Shown here piece by piece: positions 11,588 to 45,386 of a stretch of 64,000 bases of DNA. The notes under the pieces were generated by a model. The model saw nothing but the letters and a program-made list of their open reading frames with translations. It had not been told where the DNA came from and searched no databases. The DNA comes from Salipaludibacillus neizhouensis (lineage in GTDB: Bacteria > Bacillota > Bacilli > Bacillales > Salisediminibacteriaceae): positions 2,887,924-2,951,923 of the forward strand of contig NZ_KZ614146.1 in NCBI RefSeq assembly GCF_002886185.1, given 5' to 3'. The position numbers and the translations under genes were made by a program. How positions within the stretch are numbered: the first letter of the stretch is position 1; every line of letters starts with the position of its first letter.

Positions 11588-11738
11588 AAAAAAACGCGTA
11601 GCGCCTTTTGTTAAATACAGTGTTATCTTTCGCCACCCCCGAGTAGCACCTACGTAGTGCGTGTAGGTGCTACTCGATAGGAGGTGGGGGTTCCCTTGAC
11701 ACGCGTGGCGTAAAGATAGCTGTCATCTTATAAATTGT
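11588..11738 (+). repeat. Nested-hairpin element, copy A
   Basis: Full copy in plus orientation. Hairpin 1 is AAAAACGC-GTA-GCGCCTTTT. The outer stem pairs ATCTTTCGCCAC with GTGGCGTAAAGAT. The inner hairpin is CGAGTAGCACCTAC/GTAGGTGCTACTCG. It then shows the CCCTTGACACGCGTGG segment and the right end TTATAAATT. It begins just after the second Fur box and ends next to an A8-GGGAGG run that is the ribosome binding site of the DUF2325 gene, so it should be transcribed as that operon's 5' leader. Confidence 0.75.
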
Positions 11739-11763
11739 CTGTAAAAAAAAGGGAGGTAAAAAC

Positions 11764-12081
11764 ATGTCATCGTTACTAGTTATTGGTGGGGATAAACTCG
11801 GAACTATTCCTGTTCGCTTAAAAGACTTGGGATTTCAAGAGATAGTGCACATAGACGGTCGTAAGGTCAAAATGATAAAAAAGGAAATACCCGAAAATGT
11901 AGACTTGATTTTAATTCTGACTGATTTCATTAATCATAATTTAGCAAAGAAAATTAAAGATAAAGCTGCAAAAAAATCTGTACCGATTTGTTATGCTAAA
12001 CGTTCTTGGTGTGCAATCTATCAATCACTTTCAAATTGTGAACATGCTTGTGCTCACTGCCCAATGCTAAAGAACTCTTGA
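11764..12081 (+). CDS. DUF2325 domain protein, Fur-boxed operon
   Basis: A 105-residue protein of the DUF2325 family. It opens with a Rossmann-like LLVIGGDKLGTIP and VHIDGRKVKMIKKE, followed by VDLILILTDFINHN. The C-terminus is rich in Cys and His (SWCAIYQSLSNCEHACAHCP), suggesting metal or redox chemistry that is not described for the family. Start ATG after GGGAGG. It is the first gene after a promoter covered by two Fur boxes, and the next gene follows 22 nt after its stop. A role in the iron-limitation response is inferred. Confidence 0.75.
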   Translation: MSSLLVIGGDKLGTIPVRLKDLGFQEIVHIDGRKVKMIKKEIPENVDLILILTDFINHNLAKKIKDKAAKKSVPICYAKRSWCAIYQSLSNCEHACAHCPMLKNS

Positions 12082-12103
12082 ATTATAATAGGGGGTGTTA
12101 CCT

Positions 12104-12613
12104 GTGAAACGGTTACAGCTGATAGATATAGAAAAAACAAACACATCATCGTCTCCTCGTACATTTCATGAATTTCTTCAAGAGACGATGAAGAAGATTC
12201 TCAATCTAAAACCTTTAACTACAAAAACTGCATTGGCAACGTTTTACAGCGAATGTCATCCTTGTACTACAACGATCTTCCACTCGTCGAATGATTTTCT
12301 TCAAAGAATTTCTTCTGTTCTGGACTATGGATTGAAAATTCTTCCGGTTTTAGTTCAGTTTGAATTACTTTCTACAACGAAAATTAAAGATGTATATATA
12401 TTTCAAGGATTTAACAAGACTACGTATGAAAACGAAAGTTGGTGTTTCCTTAGTAAAAAAGCAAAATGTGACTCAGAGTTATTGCAACATATAAATTTAT
12501 TTTTCGATAGTGATAGGAGTCATCACACCATGAGATTGTGGATGTATTGTCTAGAGGACGGAGATACTGATTGTCTTCAAAATACAGCGCAAGCTCCTTG
12601 TTCATCCACGTAA
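12104..12613 (+). CDS. Unknown Cys-rich protein in the Fur-boxed operon
   Basis: 169 residues, not recognised. It is soluble, with no signal peptide or membrane segment. Cys residues occur as SECHPC (about residue 50), SWCFLSKKAKC (about 118-128) and near the end as YCLEDGDTDCLQNTAQAPC. A central hydrophobic stretch, GLKILPVLVQFELL, suggests a folded core. The GTG at 12104 is favoured because GGGGGTG lies 6 nt before it; an earlier in-frame GTG at 12095 overlaps that site. Its position 22 nt after the DUF2325 gene implies co-transcription and iron control. Function is unknown; a metal-related role is only suggested by context and Cys content. Confidence 0.6.
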   Translation: MKRLQLIDIEKTNTSSSPRTFHEFLQETMKKILNLKPLTTKTALATFYSECHPCTTTIFHSSNDFLQRISSVLDYGLKILPVLVQFELLSTTKIKDVYIFQGFNKTTYENESWCFLSKKAKCDSELLQHINLFFDSDRSHHTMRLWMYCLEDGDTDCLQNTAQAPCSST

Positions 12614-12721
12614 AATGATCTTATTAAACAATCATTAAAAAAACATCCTTCCTTTATGGGAAGAATGCAGTATCTATAATTATATTGGATAGTATCCGAT
12701 AAATTTATATTGTATGCTTTG

Positions 12722-12880
12722 CTACTGATTGCGAGCGATCATACCTTGATAAGATTGACCCTGAGAAGACCGTTCAGCTTCGGCAATACGGAATTCTTCG
12801 ATAAACGTATAGACGATTCTTAATTCTGTCTCTGATAAATCGTCAACCATTTGAAGGACATCTTTTTTGGTTATTTCCAT
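12722..12880 (-). CDS. Small hypothetical protein
   Basis: 52 residues starting MEITKKDVLQMVDDLSE, predicted to be two helices with many charged residues, ending in a Gln/Ser-rich tail. The frame continues 17 codons upstream, but GGAGG about 8 nt before the ATG at 12880 marks the start. It lies 63 bp downstream of the TspO-like gene on the same strand and may be co-transcribed. No family was recognised; codon use and the good RBS argue that it is real. Confidence 0.6.
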   Translation of the reverse strand: MEITKKDVLQMVDDLSETELRIVYTFIEEFRIAEAERSSQGQSYQGMIARNQ

Positions 12881-12943
12881 CGATGTATCCTCCTTTTTCT
12901 TTAATAGTGATGCTATTATATGTTTACCCACTATCTATAGTTC

Positions 12944-13714
12944 TCAATCATTCTTCGGATAAAATCCTCTCATTTTAACCATCTGAAAAATGACGTAAAT
13001 CAGTACAATACTAGCTAATCCGCATGCAGTATAAGATATAGCCGGAAAGCTATCTAGTCTTTCCAATGCTATTCCGATAAATGCCCATACAAAGACTAAT
13101 GGAAATACTGTATCTTTTTTAACATGTGTAAATCCTATTGCCAAAATACTAGCAAGGAAAAGTAAAATTATTGTCCAACTTTGAGGTCCAAGAATAACTC
13201 CATCCTCGTAACCTAACGTATTGAAAAAGATTCCCACGTTGACAATCGTTGCTACAGAAATCCAACCTAAGTAGATAGAGAAAGGCAATTTAGACCATAT
13301 ACTCACTTCTTTCACAGTCCGAAGTCTCCGGTAAATTATGATAATATTTACTAACAAACTAATCATTACAATCAATGTGCCAATAAAATATTGATAATGA
13401 AATAAATAGAGCCAAGAACTATTCAACAGAGCATTTAATAAAAATAGTGTACCTATATTTTCATATGCTTCTTTATCACGTAAGTGTCTTTTAAAAAAAG
13501 GTCTTAGCGTCCAAATGAATAAAAGCAAGTAAATAATACTCCAAATACTAAATACATAGCCTGCTGGTGTAAACAATACATTCACCTGGTCGGAAATTTC
13601 ACCGGTTGTCAGATTGTTGAATGGTAAAATATTAGCCAATGCGTTTACTATAACTAGACCTAAAAGGGCAAAAAGGTTAATATATTTTATTATTTGTAAG
13701 TCATATCTCTTCAT
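12944..13714 (-). CDS. TspO/MBR-related tryptophan-rich sensory protein
   Basis: A 256-residue protein with about eight hydrophobic segments. The N-terminal portion has NILPFNNLTTGEISDQ, then FTPAGYVFSIWSIIYLLLF (about 48-66) and NALLNSSWLYLFHY (about 94-107). These correspond to the Pro/Trp-rich signatures of the extended tryptophan-rich sensory protein family distantly related to TspO. Canonical TspO is about 160 residues, so this is the longer subfamily. The ligand is unknown. Start ATG after AAGGAG. Confidence 0.72.
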   Translation of the reverse strand: MKRYDLQIIKYINLFALLGLVIVNALANILPFNNLTTGEISDQVNVLFTPAGYVFSIWSIIYLLLFIWTLRPFFKRHLRDKEAYENIGTLFLLNALLNSSWLYLFHYQYFIGTLIVMISLLVNIIIIYRRLRTVKEVSIWSKLPFSIYLGWISVATIVNVGIFFNTLGYEDGVILGPQSWTIILLFLASILAIGFTHVKKDTVFPLVFVWAFIGIALERLDSFPAISYTACGLASIVLIYVIFQMVKMRGFYPKND

Positions 13715-13929
13715 TTTCAGTAACTCCTTTATTTTCGTTACGTATCAGTACCCTTTTTTCAGAAGAATAAATCCAATTCTAAAGATGATTCCGTAAAGTT
13801 TAGGAATACATTAGAAAAACTAAAGTTTAACTTTAATTAAATTTTTGTTTTATAGGTTATATTGCTCTTTAGTCAATTGAAGTCTTTAAAAACTTAGTGT
13901 TTTTTTCTCTATTTTGTTGCCTTATTTTC

Positions 13930-14062
13930 CTCAAAAGTTGTTTGGAAGAATTACGTTCCCTTTCCGTGAATGATCCGTGTGCCCCCTCGAGCCAAAACGC
14001 TCTGCGGGGTCTCTCTTGGATCATTCTTCCACAGGAGTCTCGCGGATTCTTCCAAACAACCA
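13930..14062. repeat. Large composite inverted repeat
   Basis: Outer 15-bp perfect arms, GTTGTTTGGAAGAAT (13937-13951) and ATTCTTCCAAACAAC (14046-14060), enclose GAATGATCC (13968-13976)/GGATCATTC (14018-14026) and a GCCCC/GGGGT core around CTCGAGCCAAAACGCTC. The centre is GC-rich compared with its AT-rich surroundings. It looks like a miniature inverted-repeat element. Open frames across it on both strands are artefacts of the symmetry. Confidence 0.65.
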
Positions 14063-14139
14063 TTTTTTATAAAGGAGTTTACGTAACTGTTATTGTTTCT
14101 TGGCTTGGAAAGTTCTACGTTGACTTTCTTTTTTGAACA

Positions 14140-14290
14140 AATAACTCGATGTAGCGAAGGCGGCGACTCCTGCGGAATTAGCAACGACTGAAGACCCCGG
14201 AGGATGGTTTTTGTCCGAGGAGGCTGAAGTCGTTGCCCGCGGAAAGCGTCCGCCTAGAGCGGATTCGAGCCTCTCTGTTCGACGAACAAA
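14140..14290. repeat. GC-rich Bacillaceae-type intergenic repeat
   Basis: A GC-rich block with nested stems: GCAACGACT (14181-14189)/AGTCGTTGC (14228-14236), GGCGGCGACTCC with a partner in GCGTCCGCC, and a tail GAGCGGATTCGAGCC. The segments GGCGACTCCTGCGG, GAAGACCCCG and CCCGCGGAAAGCGTCCGCC recall a repeat I know to be scattered through many Bacillaceae genomes (from memory, not searched). Truncated tails of the same element are at 1416, 18389, 26714 and 38788. Confidence 0.7.
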
Positions 14291-14327
14291 ACAATCTATA
14301 AAAAGTGTTAATTTTATAAATTATCTT

Positions 14328-14459
14328 ATAAGAAAAACGGCATAGCCGTCTTTTATTAAATACAGCGTCATCTTTCGCCACCATCATTTATGCATCAAGG
14401 GCGAACTTCCCTTGATGCTTGTGGCGTAAAGATAGCTGTCAACTTATAAATTTCTTACC
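14328..14459 (+). repeat. Nested-hairpin element, copy B (short form)
   Basis: Plus orientation. Hairpin 1 is AAAAACGGC-ATA-GCCGTCTTTT and the outer stem is ATCTTTCGCCAC/GTGGCGTAAAGAT. The GAGTAGCACCTAC module is absent. Instead a perfect 10-bp stem, GCATCAAGGG (14392-14401)/CCCTTGATGC (14409-14418), fills the centre. The right end TTATAAATTTCTTA stops about 5 nt from the A-run of the yfmR terminator. Confidence 0.8.
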
Positions 14460-14462
14460 TTG

Positions 14463-14510
14463 AAAAAAAGGGACTGAAAAAAGTATCTCCCTTTTTTCAG
14501 TCCCTTTCAA
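14463..14510 (-). terminator. yfmR terminator
   Basis: A perfect 17-bp stem (14467-14483 with 14491-14507) around loop TATCTCC, with a T7 run on the minus strand. It lies just after the yfmR stop codon. Confidence 0.9.
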
Positions 14511-14518
14511 AATATCTG

Positions 14519-16432
14519 CTATTTTGTTTGCTTTTCCGATTCTATTTCTTCAACAAGAACGGATAACTCTGTCCATCTGCTCATCGCTTCTTCCAGTTCT
14601 TTTTCGAGCTTTTTCTGGTTCTCCATAAAATCCCGAGCCTTATCAAAGTCGCTGCCCGTTTTTTCTATATCTTCAGCAATGCCTTCCAACTTTTGTTCTA
14701 AAGTTTCGATTCGGTCTTCGATCGTATCCCATTCTAATTGATCCTTGTAGGCCAGTTTCTTCGGTTTATCTTTGCTTGCTGTTGGTTCATCATTATTAAT
14801 TTTTTCTTTTTTAATTGGTGAGGAATCTTCCTGTTTCTGTTTTTCAGAGTCTAACCACTCACTATAGGAACCATAATAGCGTGATATTTTTCCATCTCCT
14901 TCAAATACAAGAAGCTTTTCAATCACTCTGTCAAGGAAATACCTATCATGGGATACTGTAATGACTACTCCCGGAAATTGATCTAAATAATCTTCTAGTA
15001 CTGATAGCGTTTGTGTATCAAGATCGTTTGTAGGCTCATCCAGAAACAGTACATTCGGTTCTTCCATTAGTGTCTTTAATAAAAACAATCTGCGTCTTTC
15101 GCCACCAGACAAGCGGCGAATATGAGTCCATTGCGCTGATCTTGAAAAGAGAAAGCGTTCCAGCATTTGCTCAGCAGTAATAACTTCTCCCTTGGATGTA
15201 TGCACAACTTCAGCAGTTTCTTTAATATAATCTATCATGCGTAGATTCTCATCCATCTCCTCATGATTTTGTGTGTAATAACCAATTTTAACCGTTTCAC
15301 CAATATCAAGAGTTCCTTCATCAGGGGTGATTCGTCCAGCCATCATGTTTAATAACGTCGTTTTACCGATCCCATTTGGTCCTATAATACCTAGACGTTC
15401 ACCTGGAATAATTAAATAGTCTAATTTGTTAACCAGTGTTTTATCATCATATGATTTACTGATGTTTTCCAATTCAATCACTTTTTTCCCTAGTCTGTGG
15501 GATCCGATTGAAAAATCTACATTTTGCAGCTTCGCATTAGGTGTGTCATCCTGAAGAGTTTCTACCCGTTGTTTTCGTGCTTTTTGTTTTGTAGATCTAG
15601 CCTTCGCTCCCCGTCTTAACCAAGCCAACTCACGGCGCAGTAAATTTTGACGTTTTGTTTCTTTATTACCTTCATCTAGTTCACGTAATGACTTCTTCTC
15701 AAGAAACAACTCATAGTTACCATCATATTGGTAAAGTTCCCCATGATCTAATTCAAAAATTCGTTTTGTAACACGATTGAGAAAGTAGCGATCGTGAGTA
15801 ATTAGGATAATGGCACCAGGATAGTTAGATAAAAAACCTTCTAGCCACTCTATTGTAATATTGTCAAGATGGTTGGTTGGCTCATCCAATAACAGTAAGT
15901 CCACTGGTTGGATGAGAGCTTTAGCAATCGAAACCCTTTTTCTTTGGCCCCCGGAAAGCTCACTAACCTTTTTTGAATATTCAGGAACTCCCAGTTTCGT
16001 CAGTACCGTTTCGGCAATCGTATTAGCTTCCCAAGCACCTTCATCATCCATTTTTCCTTGAGCTTTAATGAGTCTATTTTGAGCCCCTTCATCATTAGGG
16101 TTCTTTTCTAAAAGAATTTGAGCCTCTTCATAAGCTCTCAGCGTTTTCATAACAGCTGAATTGCCATAATATACTTGATCCAAAACAGTTAGTTCTTCTT
16201 CTAAAATTGGCTCCTGAGGTAAATATTCCAGGAGAAAGTCATTAGAGTGGTCTAGCTTTCCACCTTCTTTACCTTCAATGCCCGATAACACTTTTAATAG
16301 TGAGGACTTGCCCGTTCCATTCACACCTATTAGCCCGATTCTGTCTTTTTTTTCTATTGAAAAGGAGATGTCATTAAACAATGTTTTCTCCCCGTAAGTT
16401 TTACGTAAATCTGTTACCCTGAACATACTCAT
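14519..16432 (-). CDS. yfmR: ABC-F ATPase YfmR (Uup family)
   Basis: A 637-residue soluble ABC-F protein with two nucleotide-binding domains. Walker A motifs are GVNGTGKSS (about 37-45) and GPNGIGKTT (about 354-362). The signatures are LSGGQRKR and LSGGERRR, and both Walker B motifs read LLLDEPTNHLD or LFLDEPTNDLD. The inter-domain P-site linker ELAWLRRGAKARSTKQKA is characteristic of Uup/YfmR, and a C-terminal coiled coil (about 560-637) completes the Uup layout. ABC-F proteins act on the ribosomal E site; YfmR helps resolve stalled ribosomes in Bacillus. Start ATG 12 nt after AAGGAT; a second ATG two codons on is possible. Confidence 0.9.
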   Translation of the reverse strand: MSMFRVTDLRKTYGEKTLFNDISFSIEKKDRIGLIGVNGTGKSSLLKVLSGIEGKEGGKLDHSNDFLLEYLPQEPILEEELTVLDQVYYGNSAVMKTLRAYEEAQILLEKNPNDEGAQNRLIKAQGKMDDEGAWEANTIAETVLTKLGVPEYSKKVSELSGGQRKRVSIAKALIQPVDLLLLDEPTNHLDNITIEWLEGFLSNYPGAIILITHDRYFLNRVTKRIFELDHGELYQYDGNYELFLEKKSLRELDEGNKETKRQNLLRRELAWLRRGAKARSTKQKARKQRVETLQDDTPNAKLQNVDFSIGSHRLGKKVIELENISKSYDDKTLVNKLDYLIIPGERLGIIGPNGIGKTTLLNMMAGRITPDEGTLDIGETVKIGYYTQNHEEMDENLRMIDYIKETAEVVHTSKGEVITAEQMLERFLFSRSAQWTHIRRLSGGERRRLFLLKTLMEEPNVLFLDEPTNDLDTQTLSVLEDYLDQFPGVVITVSHDRYFLDRVIEKLLVFEGDGKISRYYGSYSEWLDSEKQKQEDSSPIKKEKINNDEPTASKDKPKKLAYKDQLEWDTIEDRIETLEQKLEGIAEDIEKTGSDFDKARDFMENQKKLEKELEEAMSRWTELSVLVEEIESEKQTK

Positions 16433-16673
16433 GAATTGATCATCCTTCTCTACTTACTCTTACCTCTCATTGTATCTGAAAAAAGGAATTCGCGATAGGT
16501 CCCCGCACAGTTCCTATGGTAAAATAATAGAAGCAGCGGTGCTATGTGAAACTTTATGCTTTTTTAAACGTAACTATTTATGAAAGATTTCAATTACTTT
16601 AGTTAGAAAACAAGATAATTGGTTCATCATTGAACACAGTACAACGATTGATTATAAGGATGAGGTGAAGGTA

Positions 16674-18365
16674 ATGACTCAAATGATTTTAGTAAGTGCG
16701 CTTTTAGCACTTTTATTTTTGCCGCTTGAACTCAGTTGGTGGCGAATGGCATTTTTCCGTAAATGGATTCCTGTCCGTTACATATTAGGTATTATATATG
16801 GAGTATCTTTATTTTACTTCGGATTGCTCGACCAAAGCTTAACTGCTATTATTGCCGCTTATTTACCTATCATAGGAATTGGATTGATTGTTGATAACAC
16901 ACTTATTTTTATGTTTAAAAAATCTTTCCGGAAAAAACAGGCAACTACCGGTGCTGCTATTGGATTAATAGTGCTCGTAGGTTTCGCCATATTCTGGCTG
17001 ATACAACCTTTATTTTTAGCAGATGTAAAATTTGATCTTGCTGATGGCGAAGAAGTTACAGTCGAAGAAATGGATCCTGTAAATGAAGAAAATATTCCTA
17101 TTGTGCCAAGAAGTTATGCCCAATACCGGTCTAATGTTTTAATGGGCCAATTAGAAAATCCGGCCTTTTATACTCTAGGGGAAACAAGGATTCAACGGGC
17201 GGATGAATCCCTCTATTGGATTACTCCGATTGAATATGATGGTATTTTCCGTTGGTATCGAAGTGACTTTGTCCCGGGTTACATTAGAGTGAGTGCAGAA
17301 AACCCTCGGGAAGAACCTGAACTTGTTTATACTGAAATGAATTATGTTCCGTCTGCGTATTTCCATGAAAATTTAGAACGTCATGTTCGCACAGAATACC
17401 CAGAGATTGTTATGCACGACACTACATTTGAGATTGATGAAGAAGGTAACCCTTTTTACATTATTAGTTACGGGCATTTCACTGAATTTCGTCGTGTGGC
17501 AGAAGTCGACGGCGTCGTCACCATTAACCCTGCAAGTGGAGAAATGGAAAAATACGATGTTGAAAATACTCCTGCATGGATAAATAGAATTTACCCTCCT
17601 CACATTGCCGAAGAGAGAAACACATGGTTTGGTATTTACAAACAAGGCTTAATTAACCGCTTCTTTGGCAGAGAAGGGCTTACACAACCTACTGAATGGG
17701 GCGCTGATGATGCTGTGACCGGCGTTGTCAATGCGGACCTTCAGCTAAACTGGTTTACGGACCATATGCGTTTACAAAACGAAGGAGAAGAAGCCTCAAA
17801 TTCCATGGTTGGTTTTACAATGTTTGATACAAGAACCGGAGATCTGAATTACTTTCGGGATGCTAGTGGAATGTTAAACGGTCGAACCGCAATGAACTTA
17901 GCTGAGCGTACATTCCGTCGTGATGACTATGTTCCAGGAACACCATCCTTGTACAATATATATGGTCAATATACATGGGTCGTTCCTCTAATGGATCGTA
18001 ATTCTGTCTTTAGACAAGTGATGCTTGTCAGTGCACGTGATGAGAATGTATATGGTCACGGAGAAACAAAACGGGAGGCTTTTGGTGCCTATCAACTAGA
18101 ACTCTCCAGAAATATAGACGAGGATATTGTGCCTGGTGAATTAACTGATATGGTTGAAATCACCTCAACAGTTGAACGAGTCTATCAATGGGACCGGGAA
18201 GATAATGTTACAATCAGGCTATTGTTAGAAGGGGAAGATCGAATTTTCACCGTTAACGCATCTTCATACCCTCGATCAGTATTCATTGAACCTGGTGATG
18301 AGATAACAATATCTTTCATGGATTCAGGGGAAGACATTCAAGTTATCGAAGAACTAGATTTTTAA
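16674..18365 (+). CDS. Membrane-anchored protein with large extracytoplasmic domain, unknown
   Basis: 563 residues, not recognised. Four hydrophobic segments fill the first 120 residues (about 3-20, 32-52, 55-80 and 93-115). An acidic, probably extracytoplasmic region of about 440 residues follows, with no Cys and many aromatic residues (RSYAQYRSN, GRTAMNLAERTFRR, YNIYGQYTWVVPLMDR). The acidic bias suits a protein exposed to a saline medium. A GTG three codons earlier overlaps the GAGGTG site that serves the ATG at 16674. It is monocistronic, with its own promoter region and a strong terminator. No enzyme motif was seen. Confidence 0.6.
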   Translation: MTQMILVSALLALLFLPLELSWWRMAFFRKWIPVRYILGIIYGVSLFYFGLLDQSLTAIIAAYLPIIGIGLIVDNTLIFMFKKSFRKKQATTGAAIGLIVLVGFAIFWLIQPLFLADVKFDLADGEEVTVEEMDPVNEENIPIVPRSYAQYRSNVLMGQLENPAFYTLGETRIQRADESLYWITPIEYDGIFRWYRSDFVPGYIRVSAENPREEPELVYTEMNYVPSAYFHENLERHVRTEYPEIVMHDTTFEIDEEGNPFYIISYGHFTEFRRVAEVDGVVTINPASGEMEKYDVENTPAWINRIYPPHIAEERNTWFGIYKQGLINRFFGREGLTQPTEWGADDAVTGVVNADLQLNWFTDHMRLQNEGEEASNSMVGFTMFDTRTGDLNYFRDASGMLNGRTAMNLAERTFRRDDYVPGTPSLYNIYGQYTWVVPLMDRNSVFRQVMLVSARDENVYGHGETKREAFGAYQLELSRNIDEDIVPGELTDMVEITSTVERVYQWDREDNVTIRLLLEGEDRIFTVNASSYPRSVFIEPGDEITISFMDSGEDIQVIEELDF

Positions 18366-18388
18366 ATAGAATCCTTCGTTCCCAAGAA

Positions 18389-18427
18389 AATCGTCCGTTT
18401 AGAGCGAATTCGATTACTCTGTTCAAA
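18389..18427 (+). repeat. Truncated tail of the GC-rich repeat
   Basis: TCGTCCGTTTAGAGCGAATTCGATTACTCTGTTC matches the 3' portion of the repeat at 14140-14290 with several substitutions; the rest is missing. It is one of four such tails in the window. Confidence 0.5.
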
Positions 18428-18475
18428 TGTAAAACTACAATCGTATTAATATTCAACACAACAACCAATAAAAAA

Positions 18476-18517
18476 GATGGTACCGCATGAAACAATTTGC
18501 GGTACCATCCTTTTTTT
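18476..18517 (+). terminator. Terminator of the unknown membrane-protein gene
   Basis: A perfect 12-bp stem, GATGGTACCGCA (18476-18487)/TGCGGTACCATC (18498-18509), followed by CTTTTTTT. Nested-hairpin copy F begins 2-4 nt after the T-run. Confidence 0.92.
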
Positions 18518-18519
18518 AA

Positions 18520-18684
18520 GAGATAATTTATAAAATTAGCAGCTACCTTCACACCGCGCGTATCAAGGGAAACCCTCCCTTCTTTTCGAGTAGCACCTAC
18601 ACGCAATTCGAAGGTGCTACTCGTGGCGGTGGAAGCTGACGCTGTATTTAATAAAAGACGGCTATGCCGTTTTTCTTATAAAAC
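18520..18684 (-). repeat. Nested-hairpin element, copy F
   Basis: Full copy, reading on the minus strand directly from the metE stop codon. Its first hairpin AAAAACGGC-ATA-GCCGTCTTTT can terminate metE. The outer stem is CACCGC (18552-18557)/GCGGTG (18626-18631), whereas other copies have CGCCAC/GTGGCG. Both arms changed together, preserving pairing. The inner hairpin has the GAGTAGCACCTAC type with one mismatch. Its right end abuts the terminator at 18476-18517. Confidence 0.85.
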
Positions 18685-21091: not shown

Positions 21092-21149
21092 GTATTTGTA
21101 TGAGATACTAATGACACCTCCCTATTTCCCGTAGGTCGACAGTGTTGAG

Positions 21150-21340
21150 AACTAGGCAGGTCTCCTGACTTTTAAATCATCATGAATTTGGCCTTCCCGG
21201 AATTCTATTCCAGTGACATCATCAAATTCACTCATTAAATACAGTGGCGGGACCGTTCTGGATTTTCACCAGATTCCCTTTTAATTGTTTAATAATCAGT
21301 CTTTTTTTAATAAAACATGAGAAATTAAACAAACCTATTT
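21150..21340 (-). promoter_or_regulatory. Cobalamin (B12) riboswitch upstream of metE
   Basis: Read on the minus strand, the leader shows AAATAGG at the 5' end (P1), AAGGGAATCTGGTGAAAATC, then GGTCCCGCCACTGTA and the B12-box region GTCAGGAGACCTGCCTA at the 3' end. These are the conserved blocks of cobalamin riboswitches in the right order and spacing. The P1 partner CCTAG closes the aptamer. A terminator follows before metE. When bound to adenosylcobalamin it should stop metE transcription. Confidence 0.93.
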
Positions 21341-21429
21341 CTTAATTATGAAATTCCTTGAATCGTACTTCTTTTCTGACTATTTGTCAATAGCTAAACA
21401 TTGTGACTATTTTGTCTATCAATGTATAA

Positions 21430-32583: not shown

Positions 32584-32624
32584 TAAGAAAAATGGCATAG
32601 CCGTCTTCTTTATAAATTCTTATC
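32584..32624 (+). repeat. Internally deleted nested-hairpin element
   Basis: The left end TAAGAAAAATGGCATAGCCGTC joins directly to the right end TTTATAAATTCTTATC. The whole outer stem and core are missing, but both termini are intact, which helps define the element ends. It lies between yfmL and yfmM. Confidence 0.7.
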
Positions 32625-32762
32625 TTTTATAAAATAGATGAACTATCTAGTCCGAATTAAACGATGTCAGTCACTCGAATCGCTATCAAAATTAGTTTAT
32701 AGCTTGAGTTTAACTCACTTTGTACCAAGAAACCAAATTTTTTATAGAGGTGTTAGCTAACT

Positions 32763-34377: not shown

Positions 34378-34592
34378 AAAAAGATGTCTAAGAAAAACGG
34401 CATAGCCGTCTTTTATTAAATACAGCGTGATCTTTAGCCACCGCCCCGAGTAGCACCTACGTACTGCGTGTAGGTGCTACTCGAAAGGAGGGTGGGTTTC
34501 CCTTGATACTTGTGGCGTAAAGATAGCTGTCAATTTTATAAATTTTTATCTCTTCAAAAGTCCTTTATGACCTTTTGAGACATCTTTTTTTA
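34378..34592. terminator. Terminator split by element copy C
   Basis: AAAAAGATGTC (34378-34388) is complementary to GACATCTTTTT (34579-34589). The inner arms TCAAAAG (34554-34560) and CTTTTGA (34572-34578) complete one hairpin once the element between 34389 and 34551 is removed. The inferred ancestral structure is a bidirectional terminator between yfmM and the flavin reductase gene. The short inner hairpin remains intact. Confidence 0.65.
34389..34551 (+). repeat. Nested-hairpin element, copy C
   Basis: Full copy in plus orientation: hairpin 1 AAAAACGGC-ATA-GCCGTCTTTT, outer stem ATCTTTAGCCAC/GTGGCGTAAAGAT, inner hairpin CGAGTAGCACCTAC/GTAGGTGCTACTCG, segment TCCCTTGATACTTG, and right end TTTTATAAATTTTTATC. 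It sits inside one arm of a terminator. Confidence 0.85.
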
Positions 34593-36084: not shown

Positions 36085-36450
36085 TTTTAACGTTCCCCTT
36101 GCATCTGCTTTTCTCGCTTTTTCTCTCTTTTTCTACCTGCTACATTTGTAGGTGCTACCTCCGTAGCACCTACAGATAATCCCTCTCTTCAATCTCCTTC
36201 TTTCTCGCTCTTCCTCCCGTTTTCTACCTGCTACATTTGTAGGTGCTACCGCCGTAGCACCTACCGATAATCCCTCTCTTCAATCTCCTTCTTTCTCGCT
36301 CTTCCTCTCGTTTTCTGCCTGCTACGTTTGTAGGTGCTACCGCCGTAGCACCTACCGATAATGCACCATTTCAATCTCCCTCTTTCTCGCTCATCCTCTC
36401 GTTTTCTACCTGCTACGTTTAGAGGTGCTACCGCCGTAGCACCTACCGCC
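36085..36450. repeat. Tandem array, 91-bp period, with palindromic core
   Basis: Four cores GTAGGTGCTAC-N4-GTAGCACCTAC begin at 36148, 36239, 36330 and 36421 (the last with AGAGGTGCTAC), exactly 91 bp apart. N4 is CTCC in the first and CGCC in the others. The intervening 65 nt are pyrimidine-rich (CTCTTCAATCTCC, TTTCTCGCTC, CGTTTTCTACCTGCTAC) and near-identical between units; the first unit is degenerate. The core is the inner hairpin of the nested-hairpin elements with its arms in the opposite order. The same arrangement occurs at 45357-45382. Confidence 0.92.
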
Positions 36451-38753: not shown

Positions 38754-38787
38754 ACATAAATACGCACAAGAAACTAGCATAGGAAAA

Positions 38788-38825: not shown

Positions 38826-38843
38826 TAATAATCTCTAAAAAAT

Positions 38844-38874
38844 AAAAAAAGGACCGTGGTCTCGGTCCTTTTTT
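38844..38874 (+). terminator. recQ terminator
   Basis: AAAAAAGGACCG pairs with CGGTCCTTTTTT around loop TGGTCT (38857-38862). Nested-hairpin copy G begins 5 nt after the T-run. Confidence 0.9.
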
Positions 38875-38879
38875 CAGAA

Positions 38880-39040
38880 GATAAGAATGTATAAGTTGAC
38901 AACTATCTTTACGCCACGCGTGTCAAGGGAAACCCTCCATTCATTTCGAGTAGCACCTACACTCAGTTACGTAGGTGCTACTCGGAGTGGCGAAAGATCA
39001 CGCTGTATTTAACAAAAGACGGCTATGCCGTTTTTCTTAT
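38880..39040 (-). repeat. Nested-hairpin element, copy G
   Basis: Full copy on the minus strand. Hairpin 1 AAAAACGGC-ATA-GCCGTCTTTT lies just after the stop of the chemotaxis-protein remnant. Outer stem GTGGCG (38987-38992)/CGCCAC (38912-38917); inner hairpin of the GAGTAGCACCTAC type; right end TTATACATTCTTATC facing the recQ terminator. Confidence 0.85.
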
Positions 39041-39048
39041 GCAATCTT

Positions 39049-39373
39049 CTAAACTGTTTTCTTCACAATATTTTGTTCCATATCGTCTATTTGTTCAGTT
39101 AAAGAGCTGACTAAGTTATTCAACGAGAGCGTAATCTGATTAAATTCATCAAATGTCGCTAATTGTTGTTCAGAGGAAGCAGATATATTTTCTGAGCTAG
39201 CTTTGTTGTTTTCAATGATATTCGTCATTTCACTTACTGCATTCAGAACCTCGGACATATTTTTTCCTATCTCATTTGTAAGATAATGAAAATCCTTCGT
39301 TTCATCGTTACCTTGCTCGATTTCGCTTATAATTTGATCTAACACCACAGCGGTGTCCCGAATCTGACTTGAC
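39049..39373 (-). pseudogene. Methyl-accepting chemotaxis protein remnant (3' end)
   Basis: An open frame of about 107 codons starts right after the adeC stop and encodes only the C-terminal signalling helices of a chemoreceptor: IISEIEQGNDETKDF, MTNIIENNKASSENISASSEQQLATFDEF and TLSLNNLVSSL. The sensor, HAMP and the conserved hairpin tip are all absent, and no RBS or convincing start codon is present. It looks like a decayed gene fused downstream of adeC by deletion. Expression as a short peptide cannot be ruled out. Confidence 0.75.
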
Positions 39374-41119
39374 CTATTCTATCTCTTCGTTTACCTTAAA
39401 CGCAATATGCGTTCCTTTCACTGCATCGAAGTAACCTAAATCGGTAAGCTTTAATGCAGGAATAACAGGTAAACACATGAAAGACAATGCCGAAAATGGA
39501 TTAAAATCTCCGTTGAACCCTAGTTCACTAAGGGACTTATCCAATTTTTTTAATTCACTATAGGTTTTCTCTCCAGTTTCAGATGACATGAGTCCAGCTA
39601 TGTTTAAGGTAATACTTGCTAAAACATCTCCATCCTTCACAAGCACTATACCACCGTTGATTCTCTCTATTTCTTGAATAGCAACAAGCATGTCTTCATC
39701 ATTCAAACCTGCTGTGACCAAATTATGTGAATCATGGGCAACCGTTAAAGCAATAGCACCTTTTGTAAAACCTAGTCCTTGAATCATACCAAGACCGACA
39801 TTCCCAGTGTTATGGTGACGCTCAATCACTGCCATTTTCAAAAGGTCTGCGTCTCCTTCTGGCTGGAATTCATCTTTTATAACAGCTGGTTCCACGGTAA
39901 TTTTTTCGGTAACGAGACTGTTAGGTTTCAATTTAATCGCATAGGCTTTTCCACCTTTTTCCATCTTCATAGACAGCATTTCTTTCGTGAAACAGGTGAG
40001 ATTCACAGAGCTCATCAATGCAGAAGGAGGGGCTTTAATTAATGCTGCTTCAGAAAGCATTTCCCCTTCCTTAGCAACGAGTTTTCCATTTTTATACACC
40101 TCTTCAACTTGAAATTCCTCCAAGTTTTTAATAAACAAAAGGTCTGCTTGATAACCCGGTGCAACTGCTCCTTTCGTTTTCAGACCATAACATTCAGAAG
40201 CGTTTAACGTCGCCATTTGAATCGCCAGAATTGGATCTAGCCCTTGACTGACAGCAAGCCTGACATTATCATCAATGCTTCCATTTTCTTTAAGTTCATC
40301 TAAATGCTTATCGTCTGTGCAGAACAGGAATCTTCGGGCATTTCCAGCATTGACTAGTGGAATGAGTGATCGTAAATCTTTTGCTCCAGAACCTTCTCGT
40401 ATAATGACATAGAGCCCCTTACGTAATCTTTCTTTCGCCTCTTCCATTTGCGTACTTTCATGGTCCGTTGTGATGCCTGCCGAACCATATACATTCATTG
40501 AATGAGCATCTAGTCCTGCGCCATGACCATCAATGACCCGATGTCTCGTTCGTGCATCTGTTAGCTTCTGTATCATTCCCGGTTCTGCATTAGAAACAGA
40601 CGGGTAATCCATGACCTCTGCTAAACCAATCACTCTTGGATGCTCATAAAAAGGTGCTAAATCTTCCGCGGAAAGCTCTGCTCCGGAATTTTCGAAAGGA
40701 GTGGCTGGTACACACGAAGGTAACATAAACAACGTGTCCAATATACTTCCTTCTGAATCATCTAACATGAATTGTATTCCTTCTACTCCTGCTACATTAG
40801 CAATTTCATGAGGATCAGTTACTACGGTTGTTACGCCATGGGGAACGACTACATGGGCAAAGTGACTGGGTGGGACCATGGATGATTCGATATGGACGTG
40901 ACCATCAATCAATCCTGGCACGATGAATTTCCCTTTAGCATCCACTGTCTTTTTTCCTTCATAGGAACCAATTCCTACAATGAAACCATTATGAATAGCC
41001 AGATCCTCTTCTTCAATTTCCAGCGTAAAAACATTTACAATCTTCCCATTCTTAATAACAAGATCCGGTTTTATCTCTTTATTCGCTGCTTTTATTTGTT
41101 CAGTAATTTCGTAATTCAT
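39374..41119 (-). CDS. adeC: Adenine deaminase
   Basis: A 581-residue metallo-amidohydrolase converting adenine to hypoxanthine and ammonia for purine salvage and nitrogen supply. FIVPGLIDGHVHIESSMV (about 69-86) holds the first metal ligands, VVTDPHEIANVAG the loop typical of adenine deaminases, and VIDGHGAG and GITTDHEST further ligands. The C-terminal half with VAHDSHNLV and GGIVLVKDG matches AdeC. Length agrees with B. subtilis AdeC (577). The ATG at 41119 lies 10 nt after AGGGGG; a TTG two codons earlier is possible. The upstream ATAACCGAATACT only loosely resembles a PurR box. Confidence 0.92.
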   Translation of the reverse strand: MNYEITEQIKAANKEIKPDLVIKNGKIVNVFTLEIEEEDLAIHNGFIVGIGSYEGKKTVDAKGKFIVPGLIDGHVHIESSMVPPSHFAHVVVPHGVTTVVTDPHEIANVAGVEGIQFMLDDSEGSILDTLFMLPSCVPATPFENSGAELSAEDLAPFYEHPRVIGLAEVMDYPSVSNAEPGMIQKLTDARTRHRVIDGHGAGLDAHSMNVYGSAGITTDHESTQMEEAKERLRKGLYVIIREGSGAKDLRSLIPLVNAGNARRFLFCTDDKHLDELKENGSIDDNVRLAVSQGLDPILAIQMATLNASECYGLKTKGAVAPGYQADLLFIKNLEEFQVEEVYKNGKLVAKEGEMLSEAALIKAPPSALMSSVNLTCFTKEMLSMKMEKGGKAYAIKLKPNSLVTEKITVEPAVIKDEFQPEGDADLLKMAVIERHHNTGNVGLGMIQGLGFTKGAIALTVAHDSHNLVTAGLNDEDMLVAIQEIERINGGIVLVKDGDVLASITLNIAGLMSSETGEKTYSELKKLDKSLSELGFNGDFNPFSALSFMCLPVIPALKLTDLGYFDAVKGTHIAFKVNEEIE

Positions 41120-41260
41120 ACTCAATCATCCCCCTGCAAAACTCTGTTTTATTCCAAGTATTAATTTGATGTGTTCATCGTCAGTTAGTATTCGGTTATT
41201 ATCCACTTTATAAAATTTTATTTAGGCTGTATTAGAAGGAAAACTACAGTATCTAAAAAA

Positions 41261-41284
41261 CTCTAGGTTTAGCTAAACCTAGAG
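41261..41284 (-). terminator. Terminator of the ABC exporter operon
   Basis: A perfect 24-bp palindrome, CTCTAGGTTTAG/CTAAACCTAGAG, with TTTTTT on the minus-strand side, 90 bp after the second exporter gene. Confidence 0.85.
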
Positions 41285-41374
41285 CAAGATTTTAAATATT
41301 ATTTTATATTATAAAGGATTCAAAAGCCAATCGTCTATTTATCGTTAAGTTTCTTCACACAATCCTTCACCTTA

Positions 41375-43252
41375 TTAACCAACTTCGCTTTTTAATTGAC
41401 TGTAATACAGATCAGAATAAAAGCCGTTTTCTCCTAATAGTTGATCATGGGAGCCCTTTTCAATGATTTGGCCTTCCTCTAGTACTAAAATCTGATCGGC
41501 TCGTTGAATCGTATTTAGCCGGTGGGCAATGACGAAACTTGTCCGTCCCTTCATTAGTCGTTGTAGGGCTTCTTGAATTTTTAATTCGGTGATCGTATCA
41601 ATACTACTTGTTGCTTCATCTAAAATTAAGATGGATGGATCTACTAGCAGAGCGCGAGCAATGGATAGTAATTGCTTTTGCCCTTGACTGATACCTCCTC
41701 CTTCTGCATCTATTTCCGTATCATATGCATCAGGCATTTGTTCGATAAACGAATGGGCATTTGCCGACTTAGCCGCTTCCACTATTTCCTCGTCCGTTGC
41801 ATTTAAACGACCATAGCGAATATTTTCCCGAATAGTCCCTTGGAACAAAAATGAATCCTGTAATACAAAAGCCATCTGTCTTCTTAACGACTCTCGTTTG
41901 ACAGAGGAGGTATCGACTCCATCAATAGATATGACGCCATCTGTAGGATCATAGAAGCGTGAAAGTAAACTAATAATGGTTGTTTTTCCAGCTCCAGTAG
42001 GGCCTACAAAAGCAACCATCTCACCCACATCAGCTTGGAATGATATACCGGAAATTGTCTCTTCATCATTCTCATAGGAAAAAGACACGTCTTCAAATAC
42101 TACCTCACCTTTTACATTATTTAGTTCTATTTTTTCTCGTTCATCAATCAATTCATTATCTTCATCCATAATTGTAAAGACCCTTTCGGCACCCGCAATA
42201 GCAGATAAAAGGGTGTTGAATTGATTCGCCAAGTCATTTAAAGGACGGGTGAATTGTCTGGCATACTCCGCAAAGATCACAATAACTCCAATTGTTATCA
42301 CACCATTAATTGCTAAAACTCCACCGACACCAGCAATGATTGCAAAACTAAAGTTATTCAGCATGTTCATCAGTTTCGGAATGAATCCAGAAATAGTTTG
42401 TGCCCAAAATCCAACCTTTTTCAATTCAATATTACGTTCTCCAAATTCCTGAATGACTTTATCCTCTTGCGAGAACGTTTTAATAATTCTTTGTCCAGAC
42501 ATTGTTTCTTGAATATATCCATTCAGCTCACCAAGGTTTTTTTGTTGAGCTTTAAATAATACGCCTGTTCGTTTTGTAATCCATTTCATTCCGTATACCA
42601 TAACTGGCACGATTGTCAACGTAATAAGAGTCAGTAACGGACTTAAGTAAAACATCACAGAGAGTGTACCAATTAAGGTCAGAATACTGGCAAAAATTTG
42701 TATCACTGAGCTATTCAAGGTATTGCTTACGTTTTCTATATCATTCGTTAACCGGCTCATTAAATCACCGTGCTTGCGTTTATCAAAAAAGGGAATTGGC
42801 AAAGTGTGTAAATGATCAAATAAATTCGTTCTCATTTTATACACCGTTTGCTGAGCAACTTGAATCATCCAATAATGCTGCAGCCACACCGATAAAGAGT
42901 GAAGGACATAGATGAGAGCCAACGATAAAAGTACCCATTTTAATCCCGTTGTTTCTTCTGTGACGATAAAATTATCAATCGACATACCTACGATAAACGG
43001 ACCTAACAATGCAAATAGAGAACTGAAAAATACCATTAAAAGTACTAGGAAAAGACGTGCCTTGCTTTCCGAAAGATAATCCCAAATCCGTTTAAGTGTT
43101 CCTTTCCAATCCTGAGCGCGTTTTGTTGTTTGGGGTTGACTTCCCCCTTTTTCATCTGTTGTTTCAGTGTTAATCTTGAATTTTTCCTGCTGAAAAGGTT
43201 CTTTTAATTTATCTAGCACCTGTTGCCTCCTCCTTTCCCAATTGTGATTCAT
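41375..43252 (-). CDS. ABC exporter half-transporter, catalytic subunit (YfiC-like)
   Basis: A 625-residue ABC half-exporter. A cytoplasmic N-terminal extension (about 1-60) precedes six membrane helices (about 65-345) and an ATPase domain. Walker A GPTGAGKTT and Walker B ILILDEATSSID keep the catalytic Glu, and AHRLNT keeps the switch His. Its signature motif is degenerate (ISQGQ rather than LSGGQ). This complements the partner encoded just upstream, with which it overlaps by 44 bp. Size and order match the YfiB-YfiC pair of B. subtilis and resemble BmrCD. Probably a heterodimeric multidrug or lipid exporter; substrate unknown. Confidence 0.85.
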   Translation of the reverse strand: MNHNWERRRQQVLDKLKEPFQQEKFKINTETTDEKGGSQPQTTKRAQDWKGTLKRIWDYLSESKARLFLVLLMVFFSSLFALLGPFIVGMSIDNFIVTEETTGLKWVLLSLALIYVLHSLSVWLQHYWMIQVAQQTVYKMRTNLFDHLHTLPIPFFDKRKHGDLMSRLTNDIENVSNTLNSSVIQIFASILTLIGTLSVMFYLSPLLTLITLTIVPVMVYGMKWITKRTGVLFKAQQKNLGELNGYIQETMSGQRIIKTFSQEDKVIQEFGERNIELKKVGFWAQTISGFIPKLMNMLNNFSFAIIAGVGGVLAINGVITIGVIVIFAEYARQFTRPLNDLANQFNTLLSAIAGAERVFTIMDEDNELIDEREKIELNNVKGEVVFEDVSFSYENDEETISGISFQADVGEMVAFVGPTGAGKTTIISLLSRFYDPTDGVISIDGVDTSSVKRESLRRQMAFVLQDSFLFQGTIRENIRYGRLNATDEEIVEAAKSANAHSFIEQMPDAYDTEIDAEGGGISQGQKQLLSIARALLVDPSILILDEATSSIDTITELKIQEALQRLMKGRTSFVIAHRLNTIQRADQILVLEEGQIIEKGSHDQLLGENGFYSDLYYSQLKSEVG

Positions 43253-44942
43253 AGATTTTCAGATAGAGAGAGGAAGAACGCATTAATTCCTCATGTGTTC
43301 CTCTTGCTGAGATGGTGCCATTCTCCATCAGCAGTATTTGATCTGCATTCATTGTCGTACTCATTTTTTGGGTAATCATAATCGTGGTGCAGGAATAAGT
43401 TCGCAACGCATCAAGTAATCTTCCCTCAGTTTTCACATCTAATGCACTGGTACTATCATCTAATAGAAGAATTTTTGGTTTTCTAATGAGTGCTCTCGCA
43501 ATCGATAAACGTTGCTTTTGTCCTCCGGAAAGATTGACACCTCTCTGGCCAATTCGCGTATCAAAGCCATTTGGTAATTCTTCAATCGTATGATAAATCT
43601 GAGCATCTTTTACGGCCTGTATCATCTCATCCAGACTTGCATCTTCTTTGCCCCAGAGCAAATTATCATGAATCGATCCCGTAAACAGCATAGCTTCCTG
43701 CGGGACGTAGCCAATTTGTCTGCGTAAATAAGACAGCTTCATTTTTCTAATATCCTGTCCATCAATCCAAATCGTGCCATCATCAAGATCATATAACCGG
43801 GGAATCAGTTGAAACATCGAAGTTTTCCCCGCACCCGTAGCACCTAGGACCGCAACCCGGTCGCCAGCTTTCGCTTGGAAAGACAAACCATTAACGACTC
43901 GCTTCTCTTTGTTAGGATAGCGAAAAGTAACCCTGTCAAACTGAATTTCTCCTGCAGTAATTCTCGATCCGTTAGGTTGATCATCTGCATCCTTTAAATC
44001 TACTTCTTCATCCAGTACATCTGCAATTCTGTCTGCAGAGGCACGCGCTCTAGAAAACATAATTACAATCATCGAAAATATCGAAAGGGCCCCCGTCATT
44101 CTCGTCACATAGTTCACGATTGCCACAACTTCTCCGACACTCGCACCTCCATTATTCACACCTACACTTCCAAACCAGAGCACAGCCATAATACTTCCGT
44201 TCATCACGAGTAAAATGACTGGCATCGTTGCTTCGATAAGCCGTAATGCTTTCACCGTTTTCACACGTAGTTCGTCGGATGCTATCGTAAAACGGTTGGA
44301 TTCATACTTTCTGCGTATAAACGCTTTAATAAGCCGTATCGCTGTTAAATTTTCCTGAACAACGTTATTAACGATATCCACTCTGGCTTGGACAGCTTTA
44401 AACATCTTGCCTGCTTTTCTCACCATCCACACAAGAAAGGCAATGAGGAAAGGTATCGTTACTACGAGAATTAAAGCAAGCTGAACGTTCACAAATAACG
44501 CCATAATAATCGATCCGATGACGAGAAGCGGAGCTCTAAGCATAATTCTCAAACTCATAAAAATCGTATTCTGAATTTGATTGACATCATTTGTCATCCT
44601 TGTCATTAAGGATGATGTAGGAAATTGACTAAAGTTAGAAAATGCGAAAGACTGCACCTTCTCAAATAGTTTGGTTCGCAAGTCAAATCCAGTATATTGA
44701 CTGGCAAGAGCCGCATAAAAAGAATTGATAACACCAGCTGCGAAGGCTATGAGGGAGAATCCTACCATGACACCGCCCCAAAGCATCACGACAGATAAAT
44801 CATTCTGCATAATTCCATCGTCAATAATTTTTGACATGAGCAACGGCTGAAGAAGTTCAACCGTTAGTTCAACAATTGTTAAAAAAAGTGCTACATACAC
44901 TGCTACCCGATACGGGCCCAGAAATGAAAATAAACGTTTCAT
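43209..44942 (-). CDS. ABC exporter half-transporter, degenerate-site subunit (YfiB-like)
   Basis: A 577-residue half-exporter with six membrane helices (about 15-300) and an ATPase domain: Walker A GATGAGKTS, signature LSGGQKQR. Walker B reads LLLDDSTSALD, with Asp in place of the catalytic Glu, and the H-loop His is replaced by Gln (ITQKMST). With the partner's degenerate signature this gives one active and one inactive ATP site, the hallmark of heterodimeric exporters such as BmrCD and TM287/288. First gene of the two-gene operon. Confidence 0.87.
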   Translation of the reverse strand: MKRLFSFLGPYRVAVYVALFLTIVELTVELLQPLLMSKIIDDGIMQNDLSVVMLWGGVMVGFSLIAFAAGVINSFYAALASQYTGFDLRTKLFEKVQSFAFSNFSQFPTSSLMTRMTNDVNQIQNTIFMSLRIMLRAPLLVIGSIIMALFVNVQLALILVVTIPFLIAFLVWMVRKAGKMFKAVQARVDIVNNVVQENLTAIRLIKAFIRRKYESNRFTIASDELRVKTVKALRLIEATMPVILLVMNGSIMAVLWFGSVGVNNGGASVGEVVAIVNYVTRMTGALSIFSMIVIMFSRARASADRIADVLDEEVDLKDADDQPNGSRITAGEIQFDRVTFRYPNKEKRVVNGLSFQAKAGDRVAVLGATGAGKTSMFQLIPRLYDLDDGTIWIDGQDIRKMKLSYLRRQIGYVPQEAMLFTGSIHDNLLWGKEDASLDEMIQAVKDAQIYHTIEELPNGFDTRIGQRGVNLSGGQKQRLSIARALIRKPKILLLDDSTSALDVKTEGRLLDALRTYSCTTIMITQKMSTTMNADQILLMENGTISARGTHEELMRSSSLYLKIYESQLGKEEATGAR

Positions 44943-45097
44943 ATAGGATCTCTTCTTTCAAATCTATTATTTTTTCCACTCACAAAAGAGGGAATTTTCT
45001 GATAACTATTAACACCTTTGTATTTATCTCCTATATTACTTTATCATAAAAAACGATTTGTTGGCACGAAAATGTTTCGAATTGCGAAGTAGTTATT
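44943..45097. other. Upstream region of the ABC exporter
   Basis: AT-rich with no recognised operator. It should hold the exporter promoter on the minus strand, but no confident -35/-10 pair was assigned. Element copies D and E begin at 45098. Confidence 0.3.
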
Positions 45098-45226
45098 ACT
45101 AAAAACGCGTAGCGTATTTTAGTAATTACAGCGTGATCTTTTTAGCCACCATCACTTAAGTATCTAGGGTGGGTTTCCCTTGATACGTGTGACGTAAAGA
45201 TAGCTGTCATTTTATACTTTCTTATC
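45098..45226 (+). repeat. Nested-hairpin element, copy D (short form)
   Basis: Plus orientation. Hairpin 1 is AAAAACGC-GTA-GCGTATTTT and the outer stem is GCCAC with GTGAC(G), one pair reduced to G-T. The GAGTAGCACCTAC module is absent, as in copy B. The right end TTTTATACTTTCTTATC is followed 4 nt later by the left end of copy E, so the two are head-to-tail. Confidence 0.8.
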
Positions 45227-45229
45227 TGT

Positions 45230-45386
45230 TAAGAAAAACGCATAGCGTCTTTTATTAAATACAGCGTCAGCTTACGCCGCCCCCGAGTAGCACCTAAAGC
45301 TACATTCTAATCTTCTTTATCCTCACGTATGCTCTCGTTTTCGACGTGCTACTTTTGTAGGTGCTACAACGGTAGCACCTACACCT
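45230..45386 (+). repeat. Nested-hairpin element, copy E, hybrid with a 91-bp-type unit
   Basis: The left half is standard: TAAGAAAAACGC-ATA-GCGTC, ACAGCGTCAGC and CGAGTAGCACCTA. The inner hairpin loop is then replaced by about 59 nt resembling the 91-bp array spacer (TCTAATCTTCTTTATCCTC, GCTCTCGTTTTCGACGTGC), ending in GTAGGTGCTAC-AACG-GTAGCACCTAC (45357-45382). The right outer arm is absent. This copy physically links the two repeat families. Confidence 0.85.

Follow-up and report, generated by a model that had tools for sequence, protein, structure and literature searches.

Very small mobile elements without genes form a large, seemingly unnamed family with a common fold in several bacterial genera

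Introduction

Small non-autonomous repeats are common in bacteria, and most of them are recognised by their sequence. The element described here, a structured repeat of about 130 bp in its short form and up to about 165 bp in its long form, was found in a 64,000-nucleotide stretch of the Salipaludibacillus neizhouensis genome (contig NZ_KZ614146.1; positions 2,887,924 to 2,951,923), referred to below as the window, and is compared here with the systems that it most resembles.

The group A repeats of Bacillus cereus (bcr1) resemble miniature inverted-repeat transposable elements (MITEs) and are, like the present element, about 150 bp long, structured, intergenic, multicopy and non-autonomous; they were originally reported as confined to the B. 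cereus group and as having a TTTAT motif. Repetitive extragenic palindromic (REP) sequences and REPINs, with their REP-associated tyrosine transposases (RAYT or TnpAREP, of the Y1 type), are likewise palindromic and present in high copy number, and this known system spreads in trans through recognition of a single strand. Group IIC introns insert behind terminators into the lagging-strand template (PMC8919778), and HUH transposases of the Y1 type also use the lagging-strand template (PMC6006769). Non-autonomous derivatives of IS200/IS605 insertion sequences are similar to the present element in their subterminal hairpins and their lagging-strand template.

The bcr1 label was considered for the new family and dropped because the nearest named relatives belong to Salipaludibacillus: a 566-aa (amino acid) protein encoded in the window has its best named relatives there (76-79% identity), followed by Litchfieldia, Evansella and Alkalicoccus (17 loci). 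The host is thus a Salipaludibacillus relative outside the B. cereus group, and the separation is drawn from the available description of bcr1 rather than from its sequence. No published description of the element was recognised in the open-licence literature searched.

The family is characterised by a covarying fold, adjacency to terminators, a strand bias in its main type, stacking of copies and presence/absence variation. The interpretation favoured here, to which we assign a probability slightly above one half (about 0.53), is that the element is non-autonomous and mobile, and that it enters the lagging-strand template behind terminators in the form of a folded single strand.

Copies in the window and in the genome

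The window was scanned with model R2, trained on 18 copies from the window genome (copy D of the window included) and 14 copies from genome G018, and 11 rows were obtained at E<=1, including six full copies with E values from 5e-29 to 3e-14. As copy D is among the training copies, its match is by construction. The copies and fragments are as follows.

11585-11743, minus strand: copy A, long form with the REP-type hairpin inside (R2 79.3 bits, E 3.4e-14; sequence profile 11587-11739)
14329-14459, minus strand: copy B, short form (R2 148.8 bits; RNA fold z -5.9)
18519-18678, plus strand: copy F, long form (R2 88.2 bits)
34389-34550, minus strand: copy C, long form (R2 91.0 bits; fold z -6.6)
38879-39039, plus strand: copy G, long form (R2 90.3 bits)
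45096-45227, minus strand: copy D, short form (R2 121 bits, D being in the model; fold z -3.8)
45229-45323, minus strand: copy E, truncated (R2 39.7 bits, E=9e-6)
1378-1485, minus strand: fragment, 3' terminator end (R2 30.9 bits, E 7e-4)
7429-7466, minus strand: fragment, 5' end of the natural strand (sequence profile only, 25.5 bits)
32584-32635, minus strand: mini copy with the core deleted (R2 26.6 bits, E 0.0055)
63523-63598, minus strand: weak fragment or terminator arm (R2 21.1 bits, E 0.082)

A preliminary description of the window had proposed a single repeat family, and the copies (six full, and E truncated) together with the weaker fragments recovered by R2 or by the sequence profile bear this out. 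Copy E, which had been listed as a full copy, is a fusion with one unit of a different 91-bp repeat that replaces the remainder of the element after about 70 bp (45309-45382); units of this repeat also form the array at 36100-36450. The strand had also been given the wrong way round, as the natural strand is the reverse, with the terminator at its 3' end. Copies D and E are arranged head-to-tail, copy F lies directly 3' of a terminator hairpin and T-tract (about 18475-18518), and a terminator-like palindrome forms the right flank of copy B in the frame of the preliminary description; the additional R2 row at 14392-14420 (E 0.15) is the palindromic core of copy B. All of copies A to G lie between the larger open reading frames (ORFs) of the window, a comparison that left out a mechanical 87-aa ORF (18343-18606) overlapped by copy F.

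In the 5.51-Mb genome containing the window (G000), patterns for the two element ends were searched with up to three mismatches and both strands taken together, and stretches were fetched for most of the first ~100 places per pattern, giving 149 merged stretches (510,043 bases) mainly around element copies. The right-end 21-mer occurred at 146 genomic places and the left-end 35-mer at 111. As the reversed control patterns gave 0 matches, the repeat family is not a product of chance. Many further copies exist: the genome has at least the 209 non-redundant profile matches of the fetched stretches, of which 48 are partial and 161 full length, the latter divided into 72 short and 89 long copies. 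Two core types had been described, and they appear as two length classes, 43 copies of 135-139 bp and 47 of 163-167 bp among the 99 of 107 copies that could be parsed. Eight of the 161 full copies overlap a predicted ORF of at least 80 aa by more than 60 bp. Deletion variants of ~50 bp, in which the terminator stem is fused to the outer stem at a common CGCGTGGCG-like word, were seen at genome positions C2:799325, C3:314049 and C3:358182.

Comparison with Rfam, which the preliminary description had proposed, gave no match for the element at the gathering threshold and no convincing match at relaxed thresholds, where apart from a riboswitch only rows below gathering were returned (best E 0.0014, to a yeast small nucleolar RNA, on L292); the element did not prove to be a known repeat in this database.

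A conserved fold

The natural strand starts with a 5' arm, AGATAAGAA, followed by a long bulged stem (ACAGC..GCTGT, ATCTTT..AAAGAT, CGCCAC..GTGGCG), an asymmetric 2x10 internal loop (2 nt facing 10 nt), and an apical stem of about 10 bp closed by a 7-nt loop that often reads AANNSC(A/G). In the 3' part the arm is repeated, and this repeat folds into an intrinsic terminator hairpin ending in TTTTTCTTA. The terminal inverted arms reported in the preliminary description are present as TAAGAA/TTCTTA, and its identification of the first hairpin as a terminator is borne out, as changes in the stem compensate each other (ACGGC/GCCGT, ACGC/GCGT, ACCGC/GCGGT). When five copies were folded (two from the window and one each from G018, G084 and G023), four gave the described fold, with the G084 copy slightly shifted, and the minimum-energy fold of copy D was partly different from the other four; the z-scores of six folded copies ranged from -3.8 to -7.9.

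Compensation was also seen in the apical stem, which was GTAT/ATAC in 26, GCAT/ATGC in 10 and GTGT/ACAC in 8 of 58 parsed short copies from G000, and GTCT/AGAC in 13/16 parsed copies from G018 (14/72 and 8/24 copies, respectively, were left out in parsing). Folded as single sequences, 34/72 short copies from G000 have an apical loop that fits AANNSC(A/G), and the same motif was found in 12/38 copies from G018, 23/32 from G023, 15/18 from G084 and 3/6 from G039, duplicates dropped. A pseudoknot between the apical and internal loops was weighed by eye and dropped.

Covariation was measured in two alignments. A4, 62 distinct rows from G018, G023 and G084 regions in an alignment fitted to the model structure, gave a score of 0.607 against 0.214 (standard deviation (sd) 0.009) after shuffling (0/500) and at most 0.108 with the partner slid; paired cells made up 92.1%, and two-sided changes occurred in 26/27 pairs. 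The unfitted MAFFT alignment A1 gave 0.137 against 0.085 (sd 0.006), again 0/500. A first RNAalifold structure had 8 pairs only, with the terminator columns misaligned. In the stems, G-U and A-C cells numbered 28 and 31 in A1 and 21 and 23 in the own-genome set P2, both unfitted, and 38 and 18 in the fitted A4. As G-U is no commoner than A-C in both unfitted counts, single copies look more like mobile DNA in neutral decay than like maintained RNA genes. The earlier suggestion of a repeated RNA therefore stands as regards a fold strongly conserved across genera, and fails as regards a G-U preference in the unfitted stem counts.

Distribution across genomes

A pattern search found 0 copies in 7/7 congeners. 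When 35 genomes of the family were searched at the DNA level, G018 (25 matches) and G020 (2) proved to carry diverged relatives, and the match in G004 was the REP-type hairpin only. An order-wide search with the narrower model R2 matched at least 3 of 397 genomes, a lower bound because scoring was limited to 8 candidates in each. Model R3, in which the new matches are included, was then applied to 11 genomes with 150 candidates per genome (E<=1e-3), and found 111 matches in G018, 86 in G023, 83 in G084, 27 in G039, 2 in G020 and 1 each in G022 and G028, with none in G004, G005, G019 and G024. The versions in G018, G023, G084 and G039 have the same fold and largely different sequence, and G084 and G039 belong to a different family from the window genome. 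Searches of plasmids (four query sequences), phages (one) and viral contigs (one exact 18-mer) gave no match, and the intergenic sites of five named relatives were too diverged for alignment.

Adjacency to terminators and strand bias

The flanks of 131 of the 161 full copies in G000 were examined for terminators, leaving out 23 stacked copies and 7 without an ORF on both sides. A terminator aimed at the element was found in 70/131 right flanks and 5/131 left flanks, in the frame of the preliminary description. Elsewhere, the count for the terminator flank compared with two control windows was 23/38 versus 3 and 0 in G018, 7/14 versus 1 and 2 in G023, and 7/18 versus 2 and 2 in G084, with duplicates and stacked copies (18 in G023) left out. 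G039 scored 0/6 because its longer 5' part pushes the T-tract beyond the test window, and T-tracts are visible by eye in its flanks.

With replichores in the fetched stretches assigned by GC skew and the strand of the genes, the natural strand in G000 was co-directional with the replication fork by 125:29, and the majority pointed the same way in all four gene contexts (tandem leading 62:10, tandem lagging 12:3, convergent 38:14, divergent 13:2). For G023, G084 and G018, the matches listed (47 of 86, 35 of 83 and 66 of 111) were split into two replichore segments by fitted breakpoints, leaving 0, 1 and 3 raw exceptions, respectively. With clusters collapsed, the exceptions among the matches listed were 0/28, 1/35 and 3/65, compared with means of 8.3, 10.4 and 21.3 and minima of 3, 5 and 14 in 1000 strand shuffles, which allow for the fitting. 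Of 65 matches in 20 fetched regions, 62 agreed with the split, and the three exceptions were all copies of a second subtype described below. Given this co-direction with replication, the natural strand is, in the main type, equivalent to the lagging-strand template.

Presence/absence variation supports the mobility suggested in the preliminary description. A copy in G018 (L187) is absent from the orthologous site in G016, and the site in G017 is too changed to judge. Three copies in the window genome (C1:103289, 2216365 and 3543687) interrupt another repeat at an identical point, the uninterrupted form of which is present in the window near 14120-14150, and these three may descend from one insertion. 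No target duplication was apparent in this filled/empty comparison, a single one made within a repeat and with ends that are not uniform. Likewise, no regular target duplication was seen by eye at 118 junctions or in the base composition of the ends, and no fixed tetranucleotide adjoins either end of the element.

A second subtype

A second subtype has the core GGCAATGG..CATTGC and the same layout as the main type. Copies in G022 (L305), G028 (L304), Evansella caseinilytica SP (L139), G023 and G018 are linked by blastn; the subtype also occurs at three places in the window genome, with weaker blastn matches to main-type copies from G084. The E. caseinilytica copy (L139:12377-12518) was the only model match among the 17 named loci (E=0.052) and shares 87.5% identity over 144 bp with L305. 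Loci of the subtype include L334, L342, L057, L093 and L229. In the last of these, at about 5640-6640 (genome C1:2995640-2996640), the right end of a degenerate IS200-like tnpA copy contains a nested element of the second subtype; the tnpA reading frame seen in G020 (L166) lacks such an element.

The inner hairpin, cargo and Y1 genes

The long form contains a GTAGCACCTAC-loop-GTAGGTGCTAC hairpin. The corresponding pattern was found at 95 places in the window genome (each on both strands), 1 each in G004 and G005, and 0 in the other five congeners, and all 75 perfect inner hairpins in the fetched stretches (of the 95 places) sit inside elements. A related array is present in the window:

36100-36450, strand unassigned: four 91-bp tandem units with GTAGGTGCTAC/GTAGCACCTAC hairpins, 76.5% identical over 341 bp to the L228 array

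The latter, a REP-type array of 91-bp units (L228; genome C2:736750-737980), lies on the 3' side of a gene for a 204-aa RAYT-like Y1 protein at C2:737646, and its stem is the inner-hairpin stem with the arms in opposite order. Because the inner-hairpin stem matches this array beside a Y1 gene, it seems that a REP-type hairpin was taken into the element and that the composite then spread. The short form is probably ancestral, and comparison of short and long copies suggests that the GTAGCACCTAC hairpin would have replaced one arm of the apical stem. The Y1 link raised in the preliminary description is thus upheld for the inner hairpin and not for the main element: a Y1 gene flanked by the repeat, as in the REP/RAYT system, occurs for the former at C2:737646 and was not seen for the latter in 20 Y1 loci. 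The GTAG-type word, which in REP/RAYT systems stands at the hairpin foot, begins the inner hairpin here and in some copies is part of the outer stem (e.g. AAGGTAGC in G018), with no unpaired foot by eye.

Both L276 and L277 of G018 carry an identical tandem array with a period of about 103 bp in the loop. At C1:704567-705325 of the window genome, two element halves flank a gene that is phosphatase-like by eye (low-molecular-weight), as if carried in the loop. Orphan ends and cargo copies were read for an autonomous copy, and neither the L276/L277 array nor the C1:704567-705325 gene is a transposase; an autonomous relative or transposase with the same ends was not found in the stretches examined.

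From 22 Y1 matches, 20 loci in G000, G004, G018 and G020 were taken with about 1.5 kb on either side. The flanks of these genes hold other repeats, and a broken IS200-like copy contains one second-subtype copy. Among the Y1 matches of G000 and G018, the best of which score 55 and 65 bits, respectively, there is no intact canonical IS200 TnpA; G020 has one match of 133 bits. In two genera, a RAYT-like Y1 gene is directly upstream of a gene that resembles one for a single-strand-binding protein by eye (L171 in G018 and L174 in G020). RAYT-like genes at L175 and, less clearly, L170 are flanked by GGTGCCTGACCCCC-type repeats, perhaps a REP family of their own.

Other features of the window (37.8% GC) are two cobalamin riboswitches on the minus strand, at 21138-21353 and 53591-53788 (the only Rfam matches at the gathering threshold), and a separate repeat with CGAAGTAGCGAAGGCGGCGACTCCTGCGGGA at about 14120-14260, which occurs at seven further places in the fetched stretches.

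Proposed mechanism and alternatives

In the mechanism favoured here, the element would insert into the lagging-strand template, a few bases 3' of the T-tract of an intrinsic terminator that is already in place. Its own terminator would keep transcription stopping at that point and create a new target; as the element ends in a terminator, head-to-tail stacking would thereby be allowed. The process would involve a single-strand intermediate and an enzyme acting in trans, most likely of the HUH (Y1) type and less likely a route through RNA and reverse transcriptase (RT), and a folded single DNA strand handled by an HUH-type enzyme is the best fit. The element shares its insertion after intrinsic terminators with group IIC introns (70/131 versus 5/131 in G000; 23/38 versus 3 and 0 in G018), as well as, for the main type and not the second subtype (2/10), the lagging-strand template, and differs from them in its size of 130-165 bp, in having no RT and in giving no Rfam intron match. 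From the IS200/IS605 derivatives it differs in lacking a fixed tetranucleotide at its ends, and no tnpA relative with the same ends was found in the stretches examined.

Several observations weigh against this mechanism. No main-type copy was present in the 20 Y1 loci, with the same result when 18/20 were rescanned with R3, no Y1 gene was found in 20 element-rich regions, G004 has two Y1 matches and no element, and no enzyme could be tied to the element. By the terminator test, 61/131 unstacked copies in G000 and 11/18 in G084 have no terminator. When the strand of second-subtype copies in G000, G018 and G023 was compared with the replichore by hand, 2/10 agreed and 8 were opposed, and the mechanism leaves this opposite strand unexplained. 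The strand bias could reflect selection rather than insertion. Finally, A4 was fitted to the model, and two-sided pairs in A1 numbered 7, slightly above the 4.8 of the shuffles (29/500).

An unlikely alternative is that the transcribed element RNA is inserted and copied by an RT borrowed from group IIC introns, which would make the element a bacterial parasite resembling a short interspersed nuclear element. The RNA-like fold with its own terminator, the similar insertion preferences of these introns (PMC8919778), and the group II RT matches in G000 (13) and G023 (11) are consistent with such a route. However, it is disfavoured because G018 has 111 element matches and 0 group II RT matches; G019 and G024, with 32 and 12 RT matches, have no element match, G-U is not favoured over A-C in the unfitted counts, and there is no Rfam intron match. 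A group II RT was also considered as partner of the element and rejected, the correlation of RT matches with the element across genomes being poor.

It is improbable that a DDE transposase moves the element as a conventional MITE by recognising its TAAGAA/TTCTTA ends. The small inverted arms at the termini, the high copy number, the lack of an ORF and presence/absence variation would all suit a MITE, but the ends are very short, no regular target duplication was seen by eye at the junctions or in the composition of the ends, and neither a conserved internal and apical loop nor a strand bias would be expected. A regulatory RNA or terminator cassette that the host maintains, and that owes its amplification to usefulness and not to parasitism, agrees with the strong fold and terminator, the mostly intergenic location and the co-direction with replication, and is very unlikely given positions that are not conserved (0 pattern matches in 7/7 congeners; an empty site in G016), the many truncated and fused copies and the lack of a G-U preference in the unfitted counts.

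Implications

The common fold, the frequent position behind terminators and the mostly uniform orientation relative to replication suggest an unusual, single-stranded mode of spreading. The loop of the element can take up cargo, which is a REP-type hairpin in the long form and, in two copies from G018, a tandem array. That a 130-bp element without an RT gene combines terminators with the lagging-strand template makes the question of what reads terminators on this strand open to direct test. As versions from different genera have in common a fold of 27 pairs, a conserved apical loop of 7 nt and a terminator, we tentatively suggest that these repeats may form an undescribed superfamily defined by shape. 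Its members would be inserted at terminators by a common enzyme that reads the folded strand, with the lagging-strand template as the target of the main type. The family is large, seemingly unnamed and made up of very small mobile elements without genes, and as the fold is kept while the sequence diverges between genera, it extends beyond the reach of sequence searches.

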